A DNA stretch of 64,000 nt, taken from positions 3,826,001-3,890,000 of the forward strand of contig OX639991.1 in the NCBI GenBank assembly GCA_951828585.1, written 5' to 3'. Shown here piece by piece: positions 52,173 through 64,000 of the stretch. The stretch's first letter is position 1. Each line of letters begins with the position of its first letter. The notes beneath the pieces were generated by a model. That model was not told where the DNA came from. It did no database searches and saw only the letters and a program-made list of their open reading frames with translations. The DNA comes from Longimicrobiales bacterium. Its GTDB lineage: Bacteria > Gemmatimonadota > Gemmatimonadetes > Longimicrobiales > Gaopeijiaceae. The position numbers and the translations under genes are program-made.

Positions 52173-53927
52173 TCAGCGTGGGGGTGTGGGGTGGAGGAAG
52201 GGTCGGAGGGCCGATCGGCGGCGGCGGAAGGGGGCGGTGGGGCGTGCGGGGCCGGGTGGGCGCCGGGTGGGTGCCGGGACCGAGGCCGTGGGCGGGGGCG
52301 GGGGTGTGATGCGGTTGCCGGTGGCGGGGGGCGCGACACGGTTGGTGTCGGGAGGGGTGGTGGTGTCGGGGGGTACCGTCGTGGTGTCGTCCACCAGGGT
52401 CATGTCGTCCACCTGCACGCTGTCACCCGCTTCCGTCTCCTCCTCCTCATCCGGCGGCGGCGGCTCCCGGGTCAGCGTATCCAATCCCCCGCCCCCGGCC
52501 GCCCCCGCAATGTTCGTCACTCCTTCAACCACCAGCTCATACGGAATGTTCGCCACCAGTCCCTCGTCGAAAACTCCCACAAGCGTGCGCGACGGGAGCC
52601 TGAGCCCCGAGAGCGTCGTGGGAATCGCCGGGCCGTCGGCGCTGTCGGGATCCAGGCCGGGATCCTCCCCGGTTACAGGTGCCGGGTCGGGCGGCTGGGC
52701 TTCCTGCCCGGCGGGCTCGGGCGCTTCGCCGACCACATCACCGGGTGCGACCGAGTCACCAGCCTCCGCCTCCATCTCCCCCTGCGCCCGCGCGATCGAG
52801 TCCTCGCGCGCAATGGAGTCCTCCCGGGCGGCCAGCCAAACCTGGTACTCGTGCTCCTGGAAGATCCGAATCCGGACCGTCGTGCCCGGCTCCGGCGGCG
52901 GCACCGGCTCCTGTTCGGCAGCCGCGGCCTCCTGTTCGGCGTCCGGGTCGTCCGCCGCCGCGACCTCGCCCGGATCCTCTACCACCTCCCCCGCGCCCAC
53001 CGTGTCCTCCACTACCTCGGCCACCTCCTCCTCCCCTTCCTCCACGCTGTCCTCCACGGCCAACACCGAGTCATCGTATTCGGCCACCGTGACCGTTCCC
53101 CGGATCGTCCCCGGAGGGATGGTCGGCTCGATGTAGTCGTCGAACTCGATCCTCAGCGTGACCGAGTCCTCGATGTTGACCCGGGTCAGACGGGGCGGGG
53201 TCGTGTCGGGCTGGATCAGGGTGAGGATCTCGAGGGTCGTGTCCGGCGGCTCGGCCAGGTCGCCCGGGACGAACGATGTCTGGGGCTCGCTTTCGTCCAC
53301 CTCCCCGTTTCGGTTCTGGTCCTGCCAGGCCCTCAACTCGAAGGGACCCGTGGGGACATAGCGGAGCGAGAATACGCCGCCGGCGTCGGAGAAGTTCCAG
53401 TGGGTCAGGGTGTCGTCCCCGTGCGGAAAACGCGCTTCGACGCGCACCGCGGGGGTCGCGTTGCCCGTCACCCGGTCCTCCACCATTCCCGCCACGACGT
53501 TCGGCACGATCTCCGGCCCGGTGGTCACGACCAGCTCGAAGGCGTCCCGCAGGTTGTTGGTGAACATGTCCCGGATGACCGGACGCACCGTGATCCGGTA
53601 CACCAGGTCAGGGGCCAGGCCCTCCTCCATCTCGACGGTGATGCACTCACGGCTGTGCTTAACCCGGATCTCGCCCGTGGAGGGCGAGACGATGACGGCA
53701 TCATCCAGCCGCCCGTCGGCAGAGCGTTCGCTGATCCGCTCGCTGAAGCAGAAGACCATCTCCCTCAGTCCGGGCTCGACGAGCGCGAAGGTATCGGGCA
53801 CCGTCTCGATCACGTAGGGCGGGAAGTTGTCCGGCGGGCCGCCGGTGGGGGCCTCGGACCGCGCGCAGGCCTCTGCCGCGACAAGCACGACGAATCCGCC
53901 GCAAATGGCCCCTACGAGTCGCCTCAC
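52173..53927 (-). CDS. Ig-like-domain lipoprotein
   Basis: 584 aa, GTG start overlapping the valS stop (GTGA). Signal with lipobox AEAC, followed by ARSEAPTGGPPDNFPPYV, the typical start of FCB-group Ig-like lipoproteins. A Big_5/SbsA-type Ig domain follows (PDTFALVEPGLREMVFCFSE ... ITVEMEEGL), then a carboxypeptidase-regulatory-like fold (GGVFSLRYVPTGPFELRAWQ with DQNRNGEVDESEP). Residues about 280-450 are low-complexity Glu/Asp/Pro/Ala. The C-terminus is Pro-rich then basic. Probably a surface or periplasmic structural protein; exact role unknown. A palindrome lies 42-59 bases upstream, inside valS. Confidence 0.85.
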   Translation of the reverse strand: MRRLVGAICGGFVVLVAAEACARSEAPTGGPPDNFPPYVIETVPDTFALVEPGLREMVFCFSERISERSADGRLDDAVIVSPSTGEIRVKHSRECITVEMEEGLAPDLVYRITVRPVIRDMFTNNLRDAFELVVTTGPEIVPNVVAGMVEDRVTGNATPAVRVEARFPHGDDTLTHWNFSDAGGVFSLRYVPTGPFELRAWQDQNRNGEVDESEPQTSFVPGDLAEPPDTTLEILTLIQPDTTPPRLTRVNIEDSVTLRIEFDDYIEPTIPPGTIRGTVTVAEYDDSVLAVEDSVEEGEEEVAEVVEDTVGAGEVVEDPGEVAAADDPDAEQEAAAAEQEPVPPPEPGTTVRIRIFQEHEYQVWLAAREDSIAREDSIARAQGEMEAEAGDSVAPGDVVGEAPEPAGQEAQPPDPAPVTGEDPGLDPDSADGPAIPTTLSGLRLPSRTLVGVFDEGLVANIPYELVVEGVTNIAGAAGGGGLDTLTREPPPPDEEEETEAGDSVQVDDMTLVDDTTTVPPDTTTPPDTNRVAPPATGNRITPPPPPTASVPAPTRRPPGPARPTAPFRRRRSALRPFLHPTPPR

Positions 53928-56686
53928 CGTTCCCCACCTCCCAAGGATGTCAACCTCTCATTCCATTTTGTCAACTGGAGTTGACATGATGCCAACTTTT
54001 CTCGCTCGCGTTCCACCACGGCCTCGGGCGCGCGGGTCACGAAGTTGTGGTTGGCCAGCTTGGCTTCCATCCCCTTCGAAAGGCCGGTTAGGCGGCCGAT
54101 CTCGCGCACGGTCCGTGCCCGTTCGCGCTCCAGGTCGATGATCCCTTCCAGGGGGAGGAACAACTCGCTTCCGTCGCGCAGGACACCGCTGGCGCCGGCC
54201 GTCCCCGAGACCGGAGAATCCGTCACGACCGAACCGATGCGCGCGAGCCGGCGGAGCATCTCCCGGCGCCCTTCCAGCCGGCCGTCGTGGCGGCCCCCGG
54301 TCAGGTGCAGCGAAATCTCGCGCCCCTCGCCGACGCCGTACTCCTTTCGCATGCCGCGCACCCGCACGATCAGCTCGCGCAGCCATTCGAAGGCGTCCTC
54401 GGCGCCGGGGTCTTCGAGCTCGGGGTCCGCGGCGGGCCAGCGGGCCACGATCAGGGGGCCGCTCCGGTCTTCGGCGCCCGGCAGCAGGCCCCACAGCTCC
54501 TCGGTCACGAACGGGACCATGGGGTGCAGCAGGCGGCAGATCCGGTCCAGAACGTGGGCCAGGACCGAGCGCGCGGCCTCGCGTCCGGGACCGCCGGGCC
54601 GCAGCCGGTGCTTGACCGACTCGAGGTACCAGTCGGTGAACTCGCCCCGGAAGAAGTCGCGCAGCACCTCGGCGACGCCCTGCATGCGGAAGGCCTCGAG
54701 CTCCTCGTCCACGCGCCGGATGGCGTGCTGCTGGCGGGACAGGATCCAGCGGTCCTCGAGCCGCAGGTCGTCCTTCACCTCCGAGAGCGGGCGGATGGGA
54801 TCGTCGCCCAGGCTCATGAGGGCGAAGCGACCGGCGTTCCACAGCTTGTTGACGAAGTTGCGGCCCGGCGCGAAGGACGATTCGAGGTCCTCGTGGTCGA
54901 GGCGGATATCGGCGCCCACGCCGGCGCTGCCCAACACGGTGAAGCGGAGCGCGTCGGCCCCGTACAGCTGCACCACCTCGAGCGGATCGACCCCGTTGCC
55001 GAGCGACTTCGACATCTTGCGGCCCTGGGCATCGCGCACGGTGCCGTGCAGGTAGACGCGCGAGAAAGGCGTGTCGCCCATGGCCTGGTACCCGGCCATG
55101 ATCATGCGCGCCACCCAGAAGAAGAGGATCTCGGGCGCGGTGGAGAGGGTGTGGCCCGGATAGAAGACCTTCAGATCGTCGGTCTCCTCCGGCCAGCCGA
55201 AGACCGAGAACGGCCACAGCCACGACGAGAACCAGGTGTCGAGCACGTCAGGGTCCTGCTCGAGGGACCCGCTGCCGCACTCGTCGCACGCCGAAGGGTC
55301 CTCGCGTGCGCAAATCTCCGCCCCGCAGTCGCCGCAGTACCACACGGGAATCCGGTGACCCCACCACAGCTGCCGCGAGATGCACCAGTCGCGGATGTTC
55401 TCCATCCACAGTTCGTAGACGCGCGTCCAGCGCCCGGGGGCGAAGGTGACCGTGCCGTCGCGCGAGGCCGCCAGCGCCGGTTCGGCCAGCGGCTTCATGC
55501 GCACGAACCACTGTTCGCTCAGCCTCGGTTCGACCACCGTGTCGCAGCGGTAGCAGCGGGGGACGGCGTGGGCGTGATCGTCGCGGCCCGCGAGGAGTCC
55601 CTCCCCTTCGAGGGCCTTCACCACCGCGCGGCGCGCGTCGAAGCGGTCGAGGTCGCGGAACGCCTCGGGCGCGTTCTCGTTCATCGCCGCGCGCTCGGTC
55701 ATGACGTTGAGGACCTCGAGGCCGGTGCGCCCCGCGATCTCGAAGTCGTTGGGGTCGTGGGCGGGCGTGACCTTGACCATCCCCGTGCCGAACTCGGCGC
55801 TCACGTGCGGGTCAGCGACGATGGGGATGGTGCGTCCCGTGAGGGGGAGATGGGCGGCCGCGCCGACGAGGGGGCCGTAACGGGGGTCGCCGGGGTTCAC
55901 GGCCACCCCGGTGTCGCCCAGCATGGTCTCGGGCCGGGTGGTGGACACGGTCAGGTACCAGCGGCCGTCGGGGAGACGGTCCACCGCGGTGGCGCCGGCT
56001 TCGCGGGCCGCCGCGGCAGCCTCCTCGTGACCGGAGACCAGCGGATAGCGGATGTGCCAGAGCGATCCGTCCGCCTCGGAACCCTCGGCCTCCTCGTTCG
56101 AGAGCGCGGTCAGGCAGCGCGGACACCAGTTGATGATGTACTCGCCCCGGTAGATGAGATCCCTTTCGTAGAGCCTGACGAAGATCTCGCGCACAGCCCG
56201 GGACAGGCCCTCGTCGAGGGTGAACCGGGCGCGCGACCAGTCGCAGCTGCAGCCGATCGCCTTCAGCTGGCCCAAAATGCGGTCCCCGGTGAGCTCCACG
56301 TGCTCCCAGACGCGCTCGACGAAGGCTTCGCGGCCCAGGTCGTGGCGGGTCTTTCCTTCGGAGGCGAGGCGCCGCTCCACGACGTTCTGCGTCGCGATGC
56401 CGGCGTGGTCGGTGCCGGGCACCCAGAGCGTGACGCGCCCCTGCATACGCCGCCAGCGAATCAGCACGTCCTGGATGGTGTTGTTGAGGCCGTGCCCCAT
56501 GTGCAGCACGGCGGTGACGTTGGGCGGGGGAATCACGATCACATATGGATCGCCTCCCGCCTCGACATCGCCCGCGGACGCACCGAACCAGCCGCCCTCC
56601 TCCCACATGCGCAGGATGCGGGCTTCGACCGCGGCCGGGTCGAAGGTCTTGGGCAACACGGCGGCTGCCGGGAAGATCTTTTCCAC
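53924..56686 (-). CDS. valS: Valyl-tRNA synthetase
   Basis: 920-aa class Ia synthetase charging tRNA-Val. The HIGH motif is HMGHG in NVTAVLHMGHGLNNTIQD and the KMSKS motif is in GRKMSKSLGN at about residue 557. The editing domain is seen in TTRPETMLGDTGVAVNP and GTGMVKVTPAHDPND. A zinc-ribbon pair is CGDCGAEIC...CDECG. The C-terminal coiled-coil arm ends QLTKWNERLTSL. ATG 56686 begins MEKIFPAAAVLPKTFDP. The gene ends in a GTGA overlap with the Ig-like lipoprotein. Confidence 0.97.
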   Translation of the reverse strand: MEKIFPAAAVLPKTFDPAAVEARILRMWEEGGWFGASAGDVEAGGDPYVIVIPPPNVTAVLHMGHGLNNTIQDVLIRWRRMQGRVTLWVPGTDHAGIATQNVVERRLASEGKTRHDLGREAFVERVWEHVELTGDRILGQLKAIGCSCDWSRARFTLDEGLSRAVREIFVRLYERDLIYRGEYIINWCPRCLTALSNEEAEGSEADGSLWHIRYPLVSGHEEAAAAAREAGATAVDRLPDGRWYLTVSTTRPETMLGDTGVAVNPGDPRYGPLVGAAAHLPLTGRTIPIVADPHVSAEFGTGMVKVTPAHDPNDFEIAGRTGLEVLNVMTERAAMNENAPEAFRDLDRFDARRAVVKALEGEGLLAGRDDHAHAVPRCYRCDTVVEPRLSEQWFVRMKPLAEPALAASRDGTVTFAPGRWTRVYELWMENIRDWCISRQLWWGHRIPVWYCGDCGAEICAREDPSACDECGSGSLEQDPDVLDTWFSSWLWPFSVFGWPEETDDLKVFYPGHTLSTAPEILFFWVARMIMAGYQAMGDTPFSRVYLHGTVRDAQGRKMSKSLGNGVDPLEVVQLYGADALRFTVLGSAGVGADIRLDHEDLESSFAPGRNFVNKLWNAGRFALMSLGDDPIRPLSEVKDDLRLEDRWILSRQQHAIRRVDEELEAFRMQGVAEVLRDFFRGEFTDWYLESVKHRLRPGGPGREAARSVLAHVLDRICRLLHPMVPFVTEELWGLLPGAEDRSGPLIVARWPAADPELEDPGAEDAFEWLRELIVRVRGMRKEYGVGEGREISLHLTGGRHDGRLEGRREMLRRLARIGSVVTDSPVSGTAGASGVLRDGSELFLPLEGIIDLERERARTVREIGRLTGLSKGMEAKLANHNFVTRAPEAVVEREREKLASCQLQLTKWNERLTSLGGGER
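53969..53986. promoter_or_regulatory. Palindrome TGTCAACT-GG-AGTTGACA
   Basis: A perfect 8-base inverted repeat around GG, inside the last codons of valS and 42-59 bases before the lipoprotein start. Near-copies (TGACAACTGGAGTTGACA and TGACAACTGGAATTGACA) flank the -35 boxes of ankyrin genes 1 and 2. A shared regulator is possible. Confidence 0.45.
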
Positions 56687-57567: not shown

Positions 57568-58221
57568 CTATCCCGTTCGTACAGGAGTGGATACACCGAT
57601 CGCCGCGCCTGGTTCGATGCGGCTCAGCACCGATGATCCACACGAGAGCGACACCTCGACCGTTTCACCCGGAGTAACGGGCCCGACCCCGTCCGGCGTG
57701 CCGGTCGCGATCAGATCCCCCTCCTCGAGGGTCATGACGTGCGAGATGAAGCTCACAAGCCTTGGGATCGAAAACACCATCTCCGCGGTTGTCCCATACT
57801 GCCGGACCTCGCTGTTGACCCGAGTGGTTACGGAAAGGTCGGACGGGTCGATCGAGGCGGCCTCGACCACATTGCCCACGGGGCAGAATGTATCCAGTCC
57901 CTTGGCGCGGGTCCACTGGCTGTCGCGGCGCTGCAAGTCCCGCGCGGTCATGTCGTTGACGGCCACGACCCCGCTCAGGTGGTCCCAGGCGCCGCTCTCG
58001 GGGACGCGGCGGCAGCGCCGTCCCACCACCAGGCCGATCTCGCCCTCGTAGTCGACCCGTCCCACGTCCACGGGCATGCGGACCGACTCTCCCGCCGCGA
58101 TGACCGACGACGGCGGCTTCAGGAAGATCAGCGGTTCGCTGGGGACATCGTGCCCCAACTCGGCCGCGTGGCGGGCGTAGTTGCGCCCCACGCACACGAT
58201 CTTGCCGGGGCGGGAGGTCAC
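57568..58221 (-). CDS. Fumarylacetoacetate hydrolase (FAH) family enzyme
   Basis: 217 aa from GTG 58221 (MTSRPGKIVCVGRNYARHA). Family signatures: FLKPPSSVIAAGE, DYEGEIGLVVGR with metal-binding glutamates, VNDMTARDLQ, and the C-terminal GDLIATGTPDGVGPVTPGE. The short single-domain form matches YcgM/FAHD1-type acylpyruvases and oxaloacetate tautomerases/decarboxylases. The upstream extension to 58494 is Arg/His-rich non-family sequence. The small membrane protein gene ends 5 bases upstream, so the two are probably co-transcribed. Confidence 0.92.
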   Translation of the reverse strand: MTSRPGKIVCVGRNYARHAAELGHDVPSEPLIFLKPPSSVIAAGESVRMPVDVGRVDYEGEIGLVVGRRCRRVPESGAWDHLSGVVAVNDMTARDLQRRDSQWTRAKGLDTFCPVGNVVEAASIDPSDLSVTTRVNSEVRQYGTTAEMVFSIPRLVSFISHVMTLEEGDLIATGTPDGVGPVTPGETVEVSLSCGSSVLSRIEPGAAIGVSTPVRTG

Positions 58222-58226
58222 GGCGG

Positions 58227-58424
58227 CTACCCCGACTTGCGGGTGTGGATGGCCGTGCCGACGACCGCGCCGAGCCCCGCGATCGTGAGGAAGCCGGCGA
58301 TGACCGTCCACCAGAAGCCGACATCGGTGTGGTCGCCTCCCCAGCCAAGCATGGCGGTGCGGGCCGCGCCGGCGGCCAGTGCGAGGAGCACGAATCCGGC
58401 GAAGAAACCGAGGGCCTTTTTCAT
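58227..58424 (-). CDS. Small two-TM membrane protein (hypothetical)
   Basis: 65 aa from ATG 58424: MKKALGFFAGFVLLALAAGA forms TM1, and FWWTVIAGFLTIAGLGAVVG forms TM2, with a short basic end (HTRKSG). It is too short for a family assignment. It lies 5 bases before the FAH gene with no other explanation for the gap. It may be an integral-membrane accessory protein. Confidence 0.6.
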   Translation of the reverse strand: MKKALGFFAGFVLLALAAGAARTAMLGWGGDHTDVGFWWTVIAGFLTIAGLGAVVGTAIHTRKSG

Positions 58425-58533
58425 TGGGTGGAATCGGGGTCGGAGGTGAGGGTGGGCGAAGCGGGTACGGGTCGGCGACAGGCACGCCTTCCAAGCCACT
58501 AACGAATCTAGCGCGGTGGCGATCAGGAATGAA

Positions 58534-59544
58534 TCACCGGCTGAAGCGGACCACGCGAAACCCGAGGCCGTTGTCGCGGTGGTCGAGTTCGAATTGGAAG
58601 CGGTGCGCCGACCGGAGGTATTCCGACGGGTATCCCCATGTGCCCCCGCGCAGGATACGCCGGGAGCAATCCCCGGAATACCGTGTCCCGGCATGCCCCG
58701 GCCGGCCGGAATGGTCCGGGTTCCAGCAGTCGTCGGTCCACTCCGTCAGGTTTCCGATCATGTCATACAATCCGAAGGCATTCGGCTCATACGATCCCAC
58801 CGGCGCGGTTCCATCCCCCTGGCCGTCGGAGCAGGACGGGTACGTCGTGCCGTGCTCCTCGAAAATCGCCAACCCTCTCTCATTCGTCCGGGCGAGGTCC
58901 CGGTCGAAGCCGTTCGCGTACCGGCACTGCTCCAAGGCGCTCTCTCCCCAGTACCGGGCGGTCCGCGTTCCCGCCCTGGCCGCGTACTCCCACCGGGCTT
59001 CGCTGGGCAGGCCGTAGGAGTGCCCGGTTTCTTCGGACAGCCACTCCACGTACTCCCGCGCATCCTGCCAGCTCACCTCCGTCACGGGACGACGCCCACG
59101 CCCCCATCCCCAGTCCGGCGGACGGTAGCCGTCGCAGCCCCCATCGTCCATGCATGCATCCCATTCCTCGAAGGTGACCTCGTAGATGCCGATGGCGAAG
59201 GGAGCCGCGACGGTGATCTCGTGCAGGGGCCCCTCATCCGCGCCCCGTCCCTCCTCGGTCTCCGGCGATCCCATGAGAAAGCTCCCCGCGGGAACCATGA
59301 CCATCTCGGGACAGTGCGGGCAGTCGCGGAACGGAGGCATGGAGGGTTCGCGGTCCTCAGCGGGGGGAGCCGCCCGATCTTGACTCTCGCGGTCTCCGGC
59401 GAGGGAGGGCGACCGATCTTGATTTGCGCGGCTGCCGGCGCATCCGGAGATGACCAGGGCGAAGGCGGTCGCGACCAGGGCGAGCGAAATGCGCCCCGAC
59501 CTGCGGCCAACAACGGATGAGACGATGGCGACCATGCTCTTCAT
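58534..59544 (-). CDS. FGE-sulfatase (SUMF1)-domain lipoprotein
   Basis: 336 aa from ATG 59544 with AGGAG 8 bases before it. The signal ends in lipobox VISGC. A linker of repeated DRES/DREP type follows. The SUMF1/FGE-like domain is clear: VMVPAGSFLMGSPETEEG, GIYEVTFEEWDACM, PVTEVSWQDAREYVEWLS, LPSEARWEYAARAGT, GLYDMIGNLTEWTDDCW, RILRGGTWGYPSEYLRSAHR and GLGFRVVR. Such domains oxidise a cysteine or bind ligands; the active-site cysteine pair of true FGE is not evident, so a non-catalytic or different role is likely. It lies just downstream of the JAMM-DinG gene. Confidence 0.9.
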   Translation of the reverse strand: MKSMVAIVSSVVGRRSGRISLALVATAFALVISGCAGSRANQDRSPSLAGDRESQDRAAPPAEDREPSMPPFRDCPHCPEMVMVPAGSFLMGSPETEEGRGADEGPLHEITVAAPFAIGIYEVTFEEWDACMDDGGCDGYRPPDWGWGRGRRPVTEVSWQDAREYVEWLSEETGHSYGLPSEARWEYAARAGTRTARYWGESALEQCRYANGFDRDLARTNERGLAIFEEHGTTYPSCSDGQGDGTAPVGSYEPNAFGLYDMIGNLTEWTDDCWNPDHSGRPGHAGTRYSGDCSRRILRGGTWGYPSEYLRSAHRFQFELDHRDNGLGFRVVRFSR

Positions 59545-59549
59545 CGCTG

Positions 59550-62168
59550 CTACTCCTGGTTGTAGAAATCCTTCACCTGCTCCTTCAGCTGCCCCCAGCG
59601 CCCCCTGGCGAGCGGCATCGGCGGCAGCGCATCGAGAAGGTCGCGCCCGTACCGCTTCGTGAGCAAGCGGTCGTCGAGGACGAGAACGGCGCCGCGGTCG
59701 GTGCGGGTCCGGATCAGCCGCCCCACCCCCTGTTTGAGGCGCATCGCCGCGTCCGGAACCATGTAGCCTTGGAACGAGTTCTCGCCGCGCTCCTCCATGG
59801 CTTCGATCCGGGCCTCGGTCATGGGTTCGCTGGGGACCCGGAAGGGCAGCTTCTGGATGACCAGGGCGCGGAGCGGGCGGCCGGGCACGTCGACGCCCTC
59901 CCAGAAGGAGGCGGTGCCGAGCAGGACGGCTTCGCCCGAGCGCGTGAAGTCGCGCAGCAGCGCGGACCGGTCGCCCTCGCCCTGCACGAAGAGGGGCCAC
60001 CGCCCTTCCGCGCCGCGATCACGCAGGTCGGCGGCCACGGCGCGGAGCGCGGCGTGGGAGGTGAAGAGGGCGAAGAGGCCGCCGCCGGTGATCTCGGCAA
60101 CGTCGTGGATGATCTGTGCAATGGCCTGGTGGTGGGCGTCGGCTGCCTGGCGGTTCCGGGCGCTCGGGAGGTCGGTGGGGATTGCCAGCAGGCTCTGGGT
60201 GGCGTGGTCGAAGGGGGAATCGACGACGGTCTCGGCGACGCGGAGGTCGGCGGGGTGGGCGTCGGCGAGGGTTTCGGCGGAGGGCGAGTAGCCGGGAGGA
60301 CCGGGTGAGCCGGCCGGAGACCGTGATGGCCCGGCCACGGCGCCACCCAGACCCAACCGCCGCCGCAGGTAGGTGAAGTCGTTGTTGGCGGCGAGTGTGG
60401 CCGAGGTGAGGACCGCGGTCTCGGTGTTGCCGAAGAGGTGGGTGGCCAGGGTCGGGCCCAGCTCGACGGGGGCGGCCGCGAAGACGAGGTTGGTGAAGCG
60501 CCGTACCCCGGAGCGGCGGACTTCGACCCAGCGCACCAGCGGAGGGCCGTCGGGAGCGCCGGGCAGGAGGCAGAAACGGAGCGCGCGGTCGATGGTCTCC
60601 AACCGGGTCCGGGATCCCCGCAGGTCGAGGAGGCGTCCCTCCACGGTCTCGAGCACGTCCTCCTGTTCTCCCAGCTGCTCGGCAAGGGCGTTCAGTTCGC
60701 GCGCCAAGTCGCCCAGGGTGATGAGAACCCGCTCCAGCGACTCGGCGATGGCGGGTTCGTCCGTGGGTTCGGGTCCCCCGGGGTTCCCGGATTTCGCCGG
60801 CCGTCCCAGCCGCAGGGCGCCCTTCCCCACCCTCCCCTCCACCCACGGCTCGATCACGTCGAAGAAACCGTTCAGCGCCTCCCGGGCCCTGCCAACCAGC
60901 TGGCGCCCGCGACCGCCGATGCGCTCGCGCAGACGCTGGGCCGTGACCGACGCCGGCACCCCGGCCAACCGTGCGTCGATCGAGGCCAGGATCCCCTTCC
61001 CGCCACGGTCGATGCGGCTGAGCGTTCGGAACATCCCCGCCCGGGTGGTCTCGGCGCCGAGACGCGTAGTCGCGGCGTCCTCAATGTGATGGGCCTCGTC
61101 GAAGATCACCCGCCTGTACGCCGGCAGCACGGCCGAGTCGCGGAAGTTCTCCGTGACGATCCGCACCGCCAGGTCGGAGAAGAAGAGCGCGTGGTTCACG
61201 ACGATCAGATCCGCGCCGGCCGCGGTCCGGCGCGCCCGCTGGAAATGGCACTGCTGGAAGTGCGGGCACTTGGCGCGCAGGCAGGCGTCCGTGTCGCTTC
61301 TGACCTCCTCCCACACGTCGTGGCTGGCGGCGAAGGGAAGATCGCTCCGCGAGCCGTCCTCGGTGCGGTCGACCCAGCCGAGCAGCGCCTCGAGTTCCGC
61401 GGAGCGGTCGCCGGGGAAGAGATCAGGGGCCGACGCCGCCGCGAGACGCGCCCGGCGGATCGAAATGTAGTTCCCCCGGCCCTTCATGAGCGCCCACTTG
61501 AAGTCCTCGCCGATCACCTCGCGCGCGATGTCCAGGTCCTTGCCCACCAGCTGCTCTTGCAGGTTGATGGTGTTGGTGGACACCACCGCGCGCTCGCCGT
61601 TGCGGATCGCCCAGCGCGCCGCCGGGACCAGGTATGCGAGCGACTTGCCCGTCCCCGTGCCCGCCTCCACCAGCCCCACCCCGCCCTCGTTGAAGCGCGA
61701 CGCCACGAAGCGCAGCATGTCCCGCTGTCCCGGACGGTCCTCGTAGCCGGGCAGCGACGCCAGCGGCCCTTTGGGAGCGAGCAGTCCCGACAGTTCGTCG
61801 ACCCGCAGCGGCTCGACATCGCGCGGCTCGGGGGGCTCGACGACCACGTAGATCCGGTTCGCGGCGTTGTTGACGATCGCGGTCCCGAGTCCGCGCTCGT
61901 AGATGCGGGCGGCGACTGCGAGATCCGCCTCCGAGGGGTCCAGTTCACCGCTCGGGTGGTTGTGGATCATGACCCCGCCGTCGGGGGCGTCGCGGGCCAC
62001 GGCCAGGACGGCCGAGCGGTTGCCGCGGGCGACGGCGCGCGGATTCGAAATCACCCGTTCGCGGGTCACTTCGGCAAGGAAGGAGACCTCGCGGCCCCCG
62101 GCCCGGGCGACCTCGTCGCGGATGGCGCGGGCGGCCTCCGGGGCGAGCCGGAGGGGGAGGTCCATCAC
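59550..62168 (-). CDS. dinG: JAMM (RadC-like) domain fused to a DinG/XPD-type helicase
   Basis: 872 aa. Residues about 1-110 form a JAB/MPN domain with a complete zinc set: E33, HNHPSG (H69, H71), S79 and D82. From about 140 a superfamily 2 DinG/XPD helicase follows: Walker A GTGTGKS at 170-176, DEAH at 357-360, and C-terminal motifs TASFWEGVDVPGRPL and KQGVGRLIRTRTDRGA. Three cysteines of the Fe-S region are present (C296, C301, C307), but the first, normally in KGRxNYLC, is Ser236 (KGRGNYIS). It probably acts in DNA repair or R-loop removal. Helicase certain; role of the N-terminal domain unknown. Confidence 0.93.
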   Translation of the reverse strand: MMDLPLRLAPEAARAIRDEVARAGGREVSFLAEVTRERVISNPRAVARGNRSAVLAVARDAPDGGVMIHNHPSGELDPSEADLAVAARIYERGLGTAIVNNAANRIYVVVEPPEPRDVEPLRVDELSGLLAPKGPLASLPGYEDRPGQRDMLRFVASRFNEGGVGLVEAGTGTGKSLAYLVPAARWAIRNGERAVVSTNTINLQEQLVGKDLDIAREVIGEDFKWALMKGRGNYISIRRARLAAASAPDLFPGDRSAELEALLGWVDRTEDGSRSDLPFAASHDVWEEVRSDTDACLRAKCPHFQQCHFQRARRTAAGADLIVVNHALFFSDLAVRIVTENFRDSAVLPAYRRVIFDEAHHIEDAATTRLGAETTRAGMFRTLSRIDRGGKGILASIDARLAGVPASVTAQRLRERIGGRGRQLVGRAREALNGFFDVIEPWVEGRVGKGALRLGRPAKSGNPGGPEPTDEPAIAESLERVLITLGDLARELNALAEQLGEQEDVLETVEGRLLDLRGSRTRLETIDRALRFCLLPGAPDGPPLVRWVEVRRSGVRRFTNLVFAAAPVELGPTLATHLFGNTETAVLTSATLAANNDFTYLRRRLGLGGAVAGPSRSPAGSPGPPGYSPSAETLADAHPADLRVAETVVDSPFDHATQSLLAIPTDLPSARNRQAADAHHQAIAQIIHDVAEITGGGLFALFTSHAALRAVAADLRDRGAEGRWPLFVQGEGDRSALLRDFTRSGEAVLLGTASFWEGVDVPGRPLRALVIQKLPFRVPSEPMTEARIEAMEERGENSFQGYMVPDAAMRLKQGVGRLIRTRTDRGAVLVLDDRLLTKRYGRDLLDALPPMPLARGRWGQLKEQVKDFYNQE

Positions 62169-62214
62169 GGGTTAGCTGACTTAGCTAACTTTCTAGCCAA
62201 GTTGGGTCGCCCCA

Positions 62215-63483
62215 TCACGTCTTCAGCTTCTTCTTCTTCGCGGCCGGAAAGAGCACGTTGTTGAGGATGAGTCGGTAGCCGGGCGAGTTGGGGTGCAGCG
62301 CCAGGTCGGTGGGCGGATCGCCGATCTGGTGCTCGGGGTCCTCGGGGTCGTGGCCGCCGTAATAGGTCCATGTCCCTTCGCCCAGGCTACCGTGGATGTA
62401 CTTGGCCCAGGTCCCCTCGATGCCGAGCTTCACCACCCCGGGCTTGAGGCGGTCGATGGCGAACGAGGTGGTCAGCCCGTAGAAGTCCGCCAGCACCGAT
62501 TCGTGGCTCTGCGTGAGCATGGCCGGGACGGGGTCGAACTTGGCGGAGAAGTCGAAGAGGCTGAAGGCGCCGAGCTGCTTCTTCCACGGCGTGTTGACCT
62601 GGTGCCCGTCGATGTCGGAGAAGGAGTTGACGGAGGGAGAGAACTGGATCCGGGCGTCGTGGAAGGCCATCGCGAGCCCCCAGTCGACCTTGGCGTCGGC
62701 GTCGGCGTCGGGCGGCGTCCCGTCGGAGTAGGCCGCGGCGATGTCGACCGAGGCGGCCGCGAGCGCCAGCTCCAGGGTCTCGGTCGCGGAACACATGGCG
62801 AAGAGGAAGCCTCCCTGGTCCACGTAGTCGCGGATCGCGCGGCTGACCGCCTTTTTGAGCGCGGGCACGTCCGGGTAGCCCAGATCGCGCGCGGCCTCCT
62901 CGTTGCGCGCCACCTCCTCCTCCAGCCACGGCGCCCCGGCATATGTGATGTAGAACTTGGAGTACTGGCCCGTGAAGTCCTCGTGGTGCAGGTGCAGCCA
63001 CTCGAAGTCGTCGAGGCCGCCCTGCAGGACCTCGATGTCCCAGATCTTCTCGTAGGGGATCTCGGCGTAGTCGAGGGCCATGGTGACGGCGTCGTCCCAG
63101 GGGGCGCTGTTGGGCGGCGTGTAGATCGCGACGCGGGTGGCCTTTTCGAGAACCACCGACTCCATGTTCGACTGGGCGATGATCCCCCGGATGCGCGCCT
63201 CGTCGGCCACCCCGACAGGTTGGATGGTGACGCCCATGAGCGCCGCCTGCCGCCGCGTCCCCTCGGTGTCGGGGAGGAAGAAGGCGCCGCCCTGGAAGTT
63301 GAGCAGCCACTCGGCGCGGCCGTCCTGTTCCAGCACCCGGTAGGCGAGGCCGTACGCCTTGAGGTGGTCGGTCTGGCCGCGGTCCATGGGGACGAGGAGG
63401 AGCTGCGCGGCGGCGTTGTCCGCGCCGCCGGCCACCGTGATCACGAAGGTGGCAGCCGTCAGGATACGGGCTCGGCGCGTCAT
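62215..63483 (-). CDS. Secreted 'asparagine synthetase B-like' protein of the FCB group
   Basis: About 422 aa from ATG 63483; GTG 63549 would also give the coupled GTGA overlap with the gene upstream. The signal peptide ends ADNAAAQ. Conserved blocks: LLVPMDRGQTDHLKAYGLAY, APWDDAVTMALDYAEIPYEK, WLHLHHEDFTGQYSKFY, GGFLFAMCSATETLELALA, YYGGHDPEDPEHQIGDPPTD and the end SPGYRLILNNVLFPAAKKKK. It matches a family often labelled asparagine synthetase B in Bacteroidota genomes, yet it has no N-terminal Cys amidotransferase or synthetase core that I can see. The export signal argues against that name. Confidence 0.9.
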   Translation of the reverse strand: MTRRARILTAATFVITVAGGADNAAAQLLLVPMDRGQTDHLKAYGLAYRVLEQDGRAEWLLNFQGGAFFLPDTEGTRRQAALMGVTIQPVGVADEARIRGIIAQSNMESVVLEKATRVAIYTPPNSAPWDDAVTMALDYAEIPYEKIWDIEVLQGGLDDFEWLHLHHEDFTGQYSKFYITYAGAPWLEEEVARNEEAARDLGYPDVPALKKAVSRAIRDYVDQGGFLFAMCSATETLELALAAASVDIAAAYSDGTPPDADADAKVDWGLAMAFHDARIQFSPSVNSFSDIDGHQVNTPWKKQLGAFSLFDFSAKFDPVPAMLTQSHESVLADFYGLTTSFAIDRLKPGVVKLGIEGTWAKYIHGSLGEGTWTYYGGHDPEDPEHQIGDPPTDLALHPNSPGYRLILNNVLFPAAKKKKLKT

Positions 63484-63545
63484 CGCGCAAACCCGGCCGC
63501 CGCGACCACCACGGCCGCCGCCAGCTGCCAACCTCGCGCGAAGCG

Positions 63546-64000
63546 TCACCCCGCGCCCCCGGCCCGGATCCGGTCCAGCTCCCGGCGCGCGCCCGGCACG
63601 ACGGGACTGTCCGGGTGCCCCACGATGAGGGCTTCCAGAATGCCTAGCGCCTCGTCGCGGCCCCCGGGCTCCAACGCCACCGCACGGGCAAGCATCAGCG
63701 CGGCTTCGGGGTATTCGCGCGCGTCCCGGTGTTCAGCCACGATGCGGCGCCGAAACGCCGTGGCCTCGGCGCCAAGGCCCGCCTGGTCGGCGGCACGGGC
63801 GCCCAGCGCCAGAATGGCGGGCCGGTCCGGCGCGGGGACCCGGTCGATCCCCTCCCGCACGATCCTCACCGCCTCGTCGGGACGGCCGCGGTGCCGTGCG
63901 ATGGCGGCCTTCGCGGCCAGCGCGGCGCCCACCGTCGTGACCTCGCTCAGGGCGAGCGCCAGGTCGAGCATCTCGGTGGCGAAGGACGGGGCGAGGTCGG
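63546..64000 (-). CDS. TPR-like repeat protein (N-terminus outside the window)
   Basis: The frame is open to the window edge; the first in-window ATG is 63971, but upstream codons (DLAPSFATE) continue the helical pattern, so the gene is cut. The visible part is alternating Ala/Leu/Arg-rich helices resembling TPR units (GRPDEAVRIVREGIDRVP, YPEAALMLARAVALEPGGRD, EALGILEALIVGHPDSPVV). It probably belongs to a scaffold or outer-membrane assembly-type protein. The stop overlaps the next gene's possible GTG start. Function unknown. Confidence 0.7.
   Translation of the reverse strand, partial: DLAPSFATEMLDLALALSEVTTVGAALAAKAAIARHRGRPDEAVRIVREGIDRVPAPDRPAILALGARAADQAGLGAEATAFRRRIVAEHRDAREYPEAALMLARAVALEPGGRDEALGILEALIVGHPDSPVVPGARRELDRIRAGGAG

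Follow-up and report, generated by a model that had tools for sequence, protein, structure and literature searches.

DinG helicases with an N-terminal RadC-like domain form a named subgroup, 'RadC-like DinG', in a recent review (Cheng 2025, PMC11981726), whose account of the subgroup reports no prior work on it; fusions of RadC to DinG/RAD3-like helicases had been noted earlier (PMC5512222). As set out in that review, the subgroup combines a RadC-like domain bearing an E, H, H, D site with the DinG motor domains MD1 and MD2, an FeS region that may hold four or three cysteines, and a YoaA-like C-terminal helix, alpha7. The same review mentions single-cysteine variants in DinG-like proteins (CCHC and CCCS; H, S or D), and the pattern 'SCCC' is absent from its main text. 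A literature search across titles and abstract openings found no paper with a serine-type DinG as its subject. Of the two closest Escherichia coli proteins, DinG reportedly has its activity switched when its cluster is oxidised (Ren 2009, as cited in PMC4131540), and YoaA has four cysteines (C108, C168, C173 and C179; PMC9826845) and no JAMM domain.

Here we describe a member of this subgroup encoded in a 64,000-nucleotide stretch of a Longimicrobiales genome (phylum Gemmatimonadota), hereafter the window. Its product shares with the published subgroup the RadC-like domain and its site residues, both helicase motors and the FeS region, in which its three cysteines fit the published definition. 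It differs, together with its relatives across the order, in carrying serine in place of the first Fe-S cysteine.

Domain layout and occurrence of the fusion

The gene is real and encodes a RadC-like DinG, an intact JAMM domain fused to a DinG/XPD-type helicase. Its start codon is GTG or the ATG that follows it. The features below are given in window positions, all on the reverse strand.

59550–62168 (−): RadC-like DinG gene, 872 aa (open reading frame and translation; whole-length matches in relatives)
61833–62168 (−): N-terminal JAMM/RadC-like domain, residues 1–112 (Pfam, AF2 model, fold matches)
62088–62090 (−): E27, JAMM glutamate (E in 74 of 78 aligned rows; invariant in a 56-row alignment)
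61923–61964 (−): HNHPSGELDPSEAD, JAMM zinc motif with H69, H71, S79 and D82 (conserved columns)
61641–61664 (−): Walker A, AGTGTGKS, residues 169–176 (translation; conserved columns)
61461–61463 (−): Ser236 of NYIS, in place of the first Fe-S cysteine (S in 76 of 76 rows of the order)
61296–61298 (−): Ser291, candidate substitute ligand or stabilising residue (Ser in 162 of the 164 rows with three cysteines)
61248–61283 (−): C296, C301 and C307, the remaining Fe-S cysteines, C-x4-C-x5-C (Cys in 78 of 78 rows)
61089–61100 (−): DEAH box, motif II, residues 357–360 (D357 and E358 invariant in the alignment)
60570–60572 (−): Cys533, the sole other cysteine of the protein (Cys in 23 of the 106 distinct rows of the Ser variant)
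59709–59732 (−): helicase motif VI, QGVGRLIR, residues 813–820 (translation and alignment)

The MD1 and MD2 motors of DinG, with their conserved motifs, were recognised by Pfam, NCBIfam, alignment and predicted fold. Pfam matched the 872-aa protein to Helicase_C_2 (E 9.8e-46), DEAD and RadC (23.6 bits, cut-off 22.1), and in motif VI residues Q813, G814, G816, R817, L818 and R820 were invariant among the aligned relatives. The best NCBIfam models were those of YoaA and DinG, all under their cut-offs, with YoaA scoring highest (NF053712, 517.9 bits against a cut-off of 680). By sequence, the closest solved structure was E. coli DinG (6FWR, E 2.3e-49), and the AF2 model (mean pLDDT 91.4, pTM 0.89, 60-sequence alignment) found its best fold match in DinG 6FWS (chain 6FWS_B, Z 37.1, 637 aligned residues, rmsd 6.4). 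E. coli DinG thus has the helicase fold and the C-x4-C-x5-C spacing in common with the window protein, but has four cysteines and lacks the JAMM domain. The last element of the model is a helix at residues 858–870, which may or may not correspond to alpha7.

The preliminary description of this gene had proposed that the JAMM site is complete, naming E33, H69, H71, S79 and D82. The site is indeed intact and conserved, and the two histidines, the serine and the aspartate stand; the glutamate does not, the actual residue being E27 (column 27 is E in 74 of 78 rows, against just 30 of 78 for column 33). In the same alignment, which comprises the window protein and relatives of its phylum with no two rows being copies of one gene, H69 and S79 are each kept in 75 rows and H71 and D82 in 74; an intact motif is missing from four rows (L039, L044, L051 and L053). 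All five residues are invariant in a 56-row alignment of the N-terminal domain. Residues 1–135 alone scored 27.6 bits against Pfam RadC (cut-off 22.1) and gave a confident AF2 model (pLDDT 93.1), with fold matches to BubCD (9EA4, Z 11.4), the Rpn8/Rpn11 entry 5U4P (Z 10.8) and PfJAMM1 (5LD9, Z 10.5). The fold is shared with BubCD, Rpn11 and PfJAMM1 over 102–112 residues (Z 10.5–11.4), as are the zinc residues; unlike these, the window's domain is fused to a helicase. Both the site (E, HxH, S, D) and the predicted fold are those of a JAMM/MPN+ metallopeptidase, and zinc-dependent (iso)peptidase activity is predicted on this basis.

The domain also shares with RadC (PF04002; 2QLC) its fold and the HNHPSG...PS..D motif (Foldseek E 1.7e-4, profile E 5e-8 against 2QLC). 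The protein is not RadC proper: the models NF000642 and TIGR00608 matched over 26–28 positions only and far under cut-off, with NF000642 reaching 22.8 of 180 bits at residues 66–91. The genome has a separate RadC (C1:3086520), and a second Helicase_C_2 protein was not found in it.

The pairing of a JAMM domain with DinG had been called unusual, a view that did not hold, since the fusion is published as a named subgroup and occurs in many phyla. Protein searches matched the window protein in 88 of 98 relatives and in 249 of 298 genomes of the phylum. We additionally scanned the DNA of 84,980 species genomes for a pattern of HNHP codons with R..Q and Walker A at the appropriate spacing behind them; because the pattern demands CACAA in the HNHP codons, it is biased towards G+C-rich genomes. 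At least 119 matches were obtained, at least 114 of them with a DinG-like frame; such a frame was lacking at five of the 119 listed (L100, L103, L160, L171 and L172). Among the matches listed, the fusion was found in Gemmatimonadota, Geobacter and other Desulfuromonadales, Treponema and other Spirochaetes, Fusobacterium, Planctomycetes including Brocadia, Sumerlaeota, KSB1, Calditrichota, Hydrogenedentes, Riflebacteria and others.

Cysteine replacement at the iron–sulphur site

Ser236 of NYIS aligns with the cysteine of 'RYVC' in E. coli DinG (6FWR), which we take to be Cys120. The alignments with 6FWR and with relatives thus bear out the earlier claim that serine stands in place of the first Fe-S cysteine, and that the site differs from the normal four-cysteine one: the window protein reads SCCC and lacks the full ligand set of the XPD/DinG type. 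Of the 78 aligned rows, 76 have Ser at position 236. These comprise every fetched row of the window's order, from three families, so Ser236 is fixed among them and is not a private mutation; the two rows with Cys (L069 and L070) belong to other families of the class, and sister families of the phylum carry Cys. Normal NYLC, which the preliminary description had regarded as evidence against its reading if found in relatives, does occur in fused proteins (117 of 241 distinct rows are CCCC). The fourth cysteine that it had considered as completing the cluster was not found: among 106 distinct Ser-variant rows there is no conserved cysteine elsewhere. Only columns 29 (47/106) and 533 (23/106) reach a fifth of these rows; the window protein has Ser at residue 29, and Cys533, being Cys in so few rows, is no conserved stand-in for the lost ligand.

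We then considered the site across the DinG family, using the rows of the phylum, the loci of the pattern scan, samples of three further phyla and 60 control regions, the last picked from two phyla's matches without coverage of the JAMM domain (unfused DinG). Of 336 rows, 327 were distinct (nine pairs represent one gene fetched twice), and all four positions were readable in 324: CCCC 160, SCCC 106, CTCC 27, CRCC 18, CSCC 11, CCSC 1 and GCCC 1. Since the phylum samples came from similarity searches and hold the best-matching loci, these proportions are not frequencies in nature. A single cysteine was replaced in 164 of the 324, and two were replaced in none. Among the 241 rows with at least four of the five JAMM residues, the types were CCCC 117, SCCC 87, CTCC 27 and CSCC 10 (a tally with second copies kept gave CCCC 115, SCCC 92, CTCC 29, CSCC 10 and incomplete 4, of 250). 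Every replacement in the fused proteins was therefore to Ser or Thr (124/124), and only as Ser at position 1 (87) or as Thr or Ser at position 2 (27 and 10). The other 83 rows comprised CCCC 43, SCCC 19, CRCC 18, CSCC 1, CCSC 1 and GCCC 1, and the 60 unfused controls CCCC 34, CRCC 13, SCCC 12 and GCCC 1. The hydroxyl rule thus holds for every fused row and not for unfused ones, in which Arg and Gly also occur.

A link between the serine variant and the JAMM fusion was considered and rejected: 12 of the 60 unfused controls have the serine-type site, which is thus not tied to the JAMM domain, and the four order rows without an intact motif (L039, L044, L051 and L053) contradict the link as well. 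We likewise set aside an association between replacement at the site and aerobic respiration: COX1 counts differed post hoc (28 of 31 versus 21 of 36 genomes, Fisher p 0.005, with three genomes with weak matches, E 1e-13 to 6e-13, scored as lacking COX1), and on independent pairs, with kinship considered, the association was unsupported (median p 0.5).

Two side observations concern individual groups. The unfused DinG proteins with Arg for the second Fe-S cysteine (L253–L256, L258, L259 and 13 of L290–L349) mostly have KGL, not KGR, ahead of NY. A DinG of Fusobacterium vincentii (L079, on a 2.1-Mb record filed as a plasmid) has an N-terminus of RadC-like length from which the HNHP motif is absent, and retains all four Fe-S cysteines.

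According to topology tests and trees, the serine variant has more than one origin. Uniting all Ser rows in a clade was rejected (AU p 9e-29), as was a clade joining the window's order with the Ser rows of Sumerlaeota (p 8e-6). One common origin of the replacements at position 2 was not rejected (p 0.062). A 67-row tree (IQ-TREE quick, LG+G4, motif and neighbouring columns removed) implied five changes at position 1 and four at position 2, and a 265-row FastTree (280 rows minus 15 too short or incomplete; second copies L200, L230 and L260 dropped) seven and five, or five and four for fused rows only, where changes may be gains or reversals and all trees were built with simple, non-mixture models. 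Codon usage is what would be expected from separate mutations: in the window's order, TCN encodes Ser236 in 83 of 86 rows (five of the 86 being second copies), and in the Sumerlaeota phylum AGY encodes the Ser in 8 of 9 rows. A descent within Gemmatimonadota, as drawn in the first FastTree versions that set four-cysteine rows among Ser rows, was not retained; in the tree without motif columns the four-cysteine rows of the phylum adjoin a Ser clade (SH-aLRT 97).

A second serine, Ser291, lies five residues ahead of C296, the second cysteine. It is present in 162 of 164 three-cysteine versus 63 of 160 four-cysteine distinct rows, the rest of the latter being mostly Ala (39) or Cys (35). By type, it occurs in all SCCC (106/106), CTCC/CSCC (38/38) and GCCC (1/1) rows and in 17 of 18 CRCC rows, the remaining one having Thr; the single CCSC row has Ala. 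In six pairs of Ser and Cys groups, column 291 stood out in five and column 292 in four, and in the Sumerlaeota contrast column 291 was nearly equal in Ser and Cys rows. Across nine independent pairs, Ser291 went with cysteine loss in a mean of 5.1 and opposite to it in 0.1, which placed it first of 40 columns tested for tracking cysteine loss; a sign test on supported branches fell short of significance (median p 0.0625). These pairs were drawn on a FastTree of 317 rows, built from the helicase part with the motif region cut out (19 of the 336 rows absent; second copies L310, L318, L321 and L332 dropped beforehand), and on the rows in this tree, copies included, Ser291 was found in 164 of 166 three-cysteine versus 60 of 151 four-cysteine proteins. 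As it accompanies nearly all replacements, even those to Arg and Gly, Ser291 is as good a candidate for a fourth ligand as Ser236, or it may just stabilise the site. The AF2 model assigns residues 234–235 and 290 to strand or bridge, with which a side-by-side placement of the two serines would fit.

Readings of the altered site

The cluster is probably altered rather than lost, as suggested by the repeated exchange of one cysteine with the other three, and nearly always the nearby serine, being kept. The explanation that we hold with moderate confidence, drawing on sequence, model and analogy, is that C296, C301 and C307 would still bind a cluster, with an oxygen of Ser236 and/or Ser291 as the remaining ligand. 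A mixed Cys/Ser site of this kind would hold its fourth iron more weakly and have a shifted redox potential. As E. coli DinG is reported to be switched by cluster oxidation, a changed ligand could move the set point, and the helicase would respond to oxidation differently from its four-cysteine counterparts in DinG. A peptide or isopeptide bond would be the target of the JAMM domain, in a protein that is bound to the moving helicase or encountered by it; that it acts on DNA-bound proteins is a guess from the fusion alone. Oxygen ligation, which we infer from the conservation pattern, has a counterpart in LipA, where a serine is a native ligand of a [4Fe-4S] cluster (PMC5352715).

Against this explanation, loss of one ligand can be harmful, as E. 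coli YoaA requires its second Fe-S cysteine, C168, in vivo (PMC8378479), and Ser291 also occurs in many four-cysteine rows (63/160). In unfused DinG a hydroxyl is not needed, since the controls include proteins with Arg at position 2 (13/60) or Gly at position 1 (1/60). These proteins, in which the other three cysteines are kept, would suit a site where three cysteines hold the cluster and the fourth position is open or water-bound, as [3Fe-4S] or as [4Fe-4S] with a labile iron, the serines shaping the pocket and binding no iron. Enzymes with three-cysteine [4Fe-4S] clusters have been described (PMC5352715), and we regard such an arrangement as possible, if rather doubtful; it would not need the Ser or Thr invariably found in the fused proteins (124/124). 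That the three cysteines and one more residue might instead hold zinc or another metal in a structural knuckle, an idea raised in the review for certain DinG-like FeS domains (PMC11981726), seems unlikely to us: the DinG site with four cysteines persists in sister families of this phylum, and the predicted fold is that of DinG. Complete loss of the cluster, leaving a purely structural domain, has parallels in CasDinG and in ExoDinG of Bacillales, and some cluster-less DinG relatives have helicase activity (PMC11981726). A dead site, however, should free the remaining cysteines and shed them, and none of the 324 distinct rows lacks two, which argues against this reading and makes it very improbable here.

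Returning to a cluster completed by serine oxygen, a broader and more tentative proposal, which we would sooner doubt than assert, is that DinG repeatedly passed from an all-cysteine to a mixed Cys/Ser [4Fe-4S] site. Ser291 would serve as a spare ligand, its availability as a fourth ligand letting either of the first two cysteines go; the outcome would be a natural series of redox-tuned DNA helicases with oxygen ligation, including one joined to a JAMM peptidase, which would clear proteins from the DNA track. The role of the Fe-S cluster in XPD/DinG helicases has been called largely elusive (PMC4131540). A family that has repeatedly swapped one ligand, kept the others and shows a neighbouring serine that follows the swap amounts to a natural mutant series, and four-cysteine and serine-type proteins from sister families offer a direct comparison of cluster type, redox potential and helicase activity. 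If serine is a ligand, the helicase would join a small number of proteins whose native cluster is bound by serine; the one in LipA was called unprecedented in a 2017 review (PMC5352715).

Genomic neighbourhood

The genes flanking the fusion in the window lie on the same strand.

62215–63549 (−): upstream gene, 444 aa, without a Pfam match (threshold E 0.001)
58534–59463 (−): FGE-sulfatase-type gene (PF03781), between the radC-dinG gene and the FAA hydrolase gene
57568–58494 (−): FAA hydrolase gene, with a relative downstream in 60 of 70 loci
53924–56686 (−): frame read by eye as valyl-tRNA synthetase (valS-like)

In 52 of the 70 loci examined in the phylum, a same-strand relative of the preceding gene was found upstream. 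A relative of the FGE-sulfatase-type gene lay downstream in 5 of 70 loci, 37 of the 70 being short, and one of the valS-like frame in 18 of 33 loci of at least 9 kb. In E. coli, valS presumably adjoins holC, whose product we take to be the partner of YoaA; the likeness to the valS-like neighbour here is perhaps a coincidence. No mobile-element or defence context was seen among the neighbouring genes, and the fusion gene seems to be chromosomal and inherited vertically.

In 13 of 20 loci, counted by eye, the stop of the preceding gene overlaps the radC-dinG start (GTGA), which suggests coupled translation. In the window the two genes are separated by 46 bases with a palindrome, GTTAGCT-5-AGCTAAC at 62171–62189, directly upstream of the start codon; among the 20 loci checked, it occurs only here, and it could be an operator or a hairpin over the ribosome-binding region.
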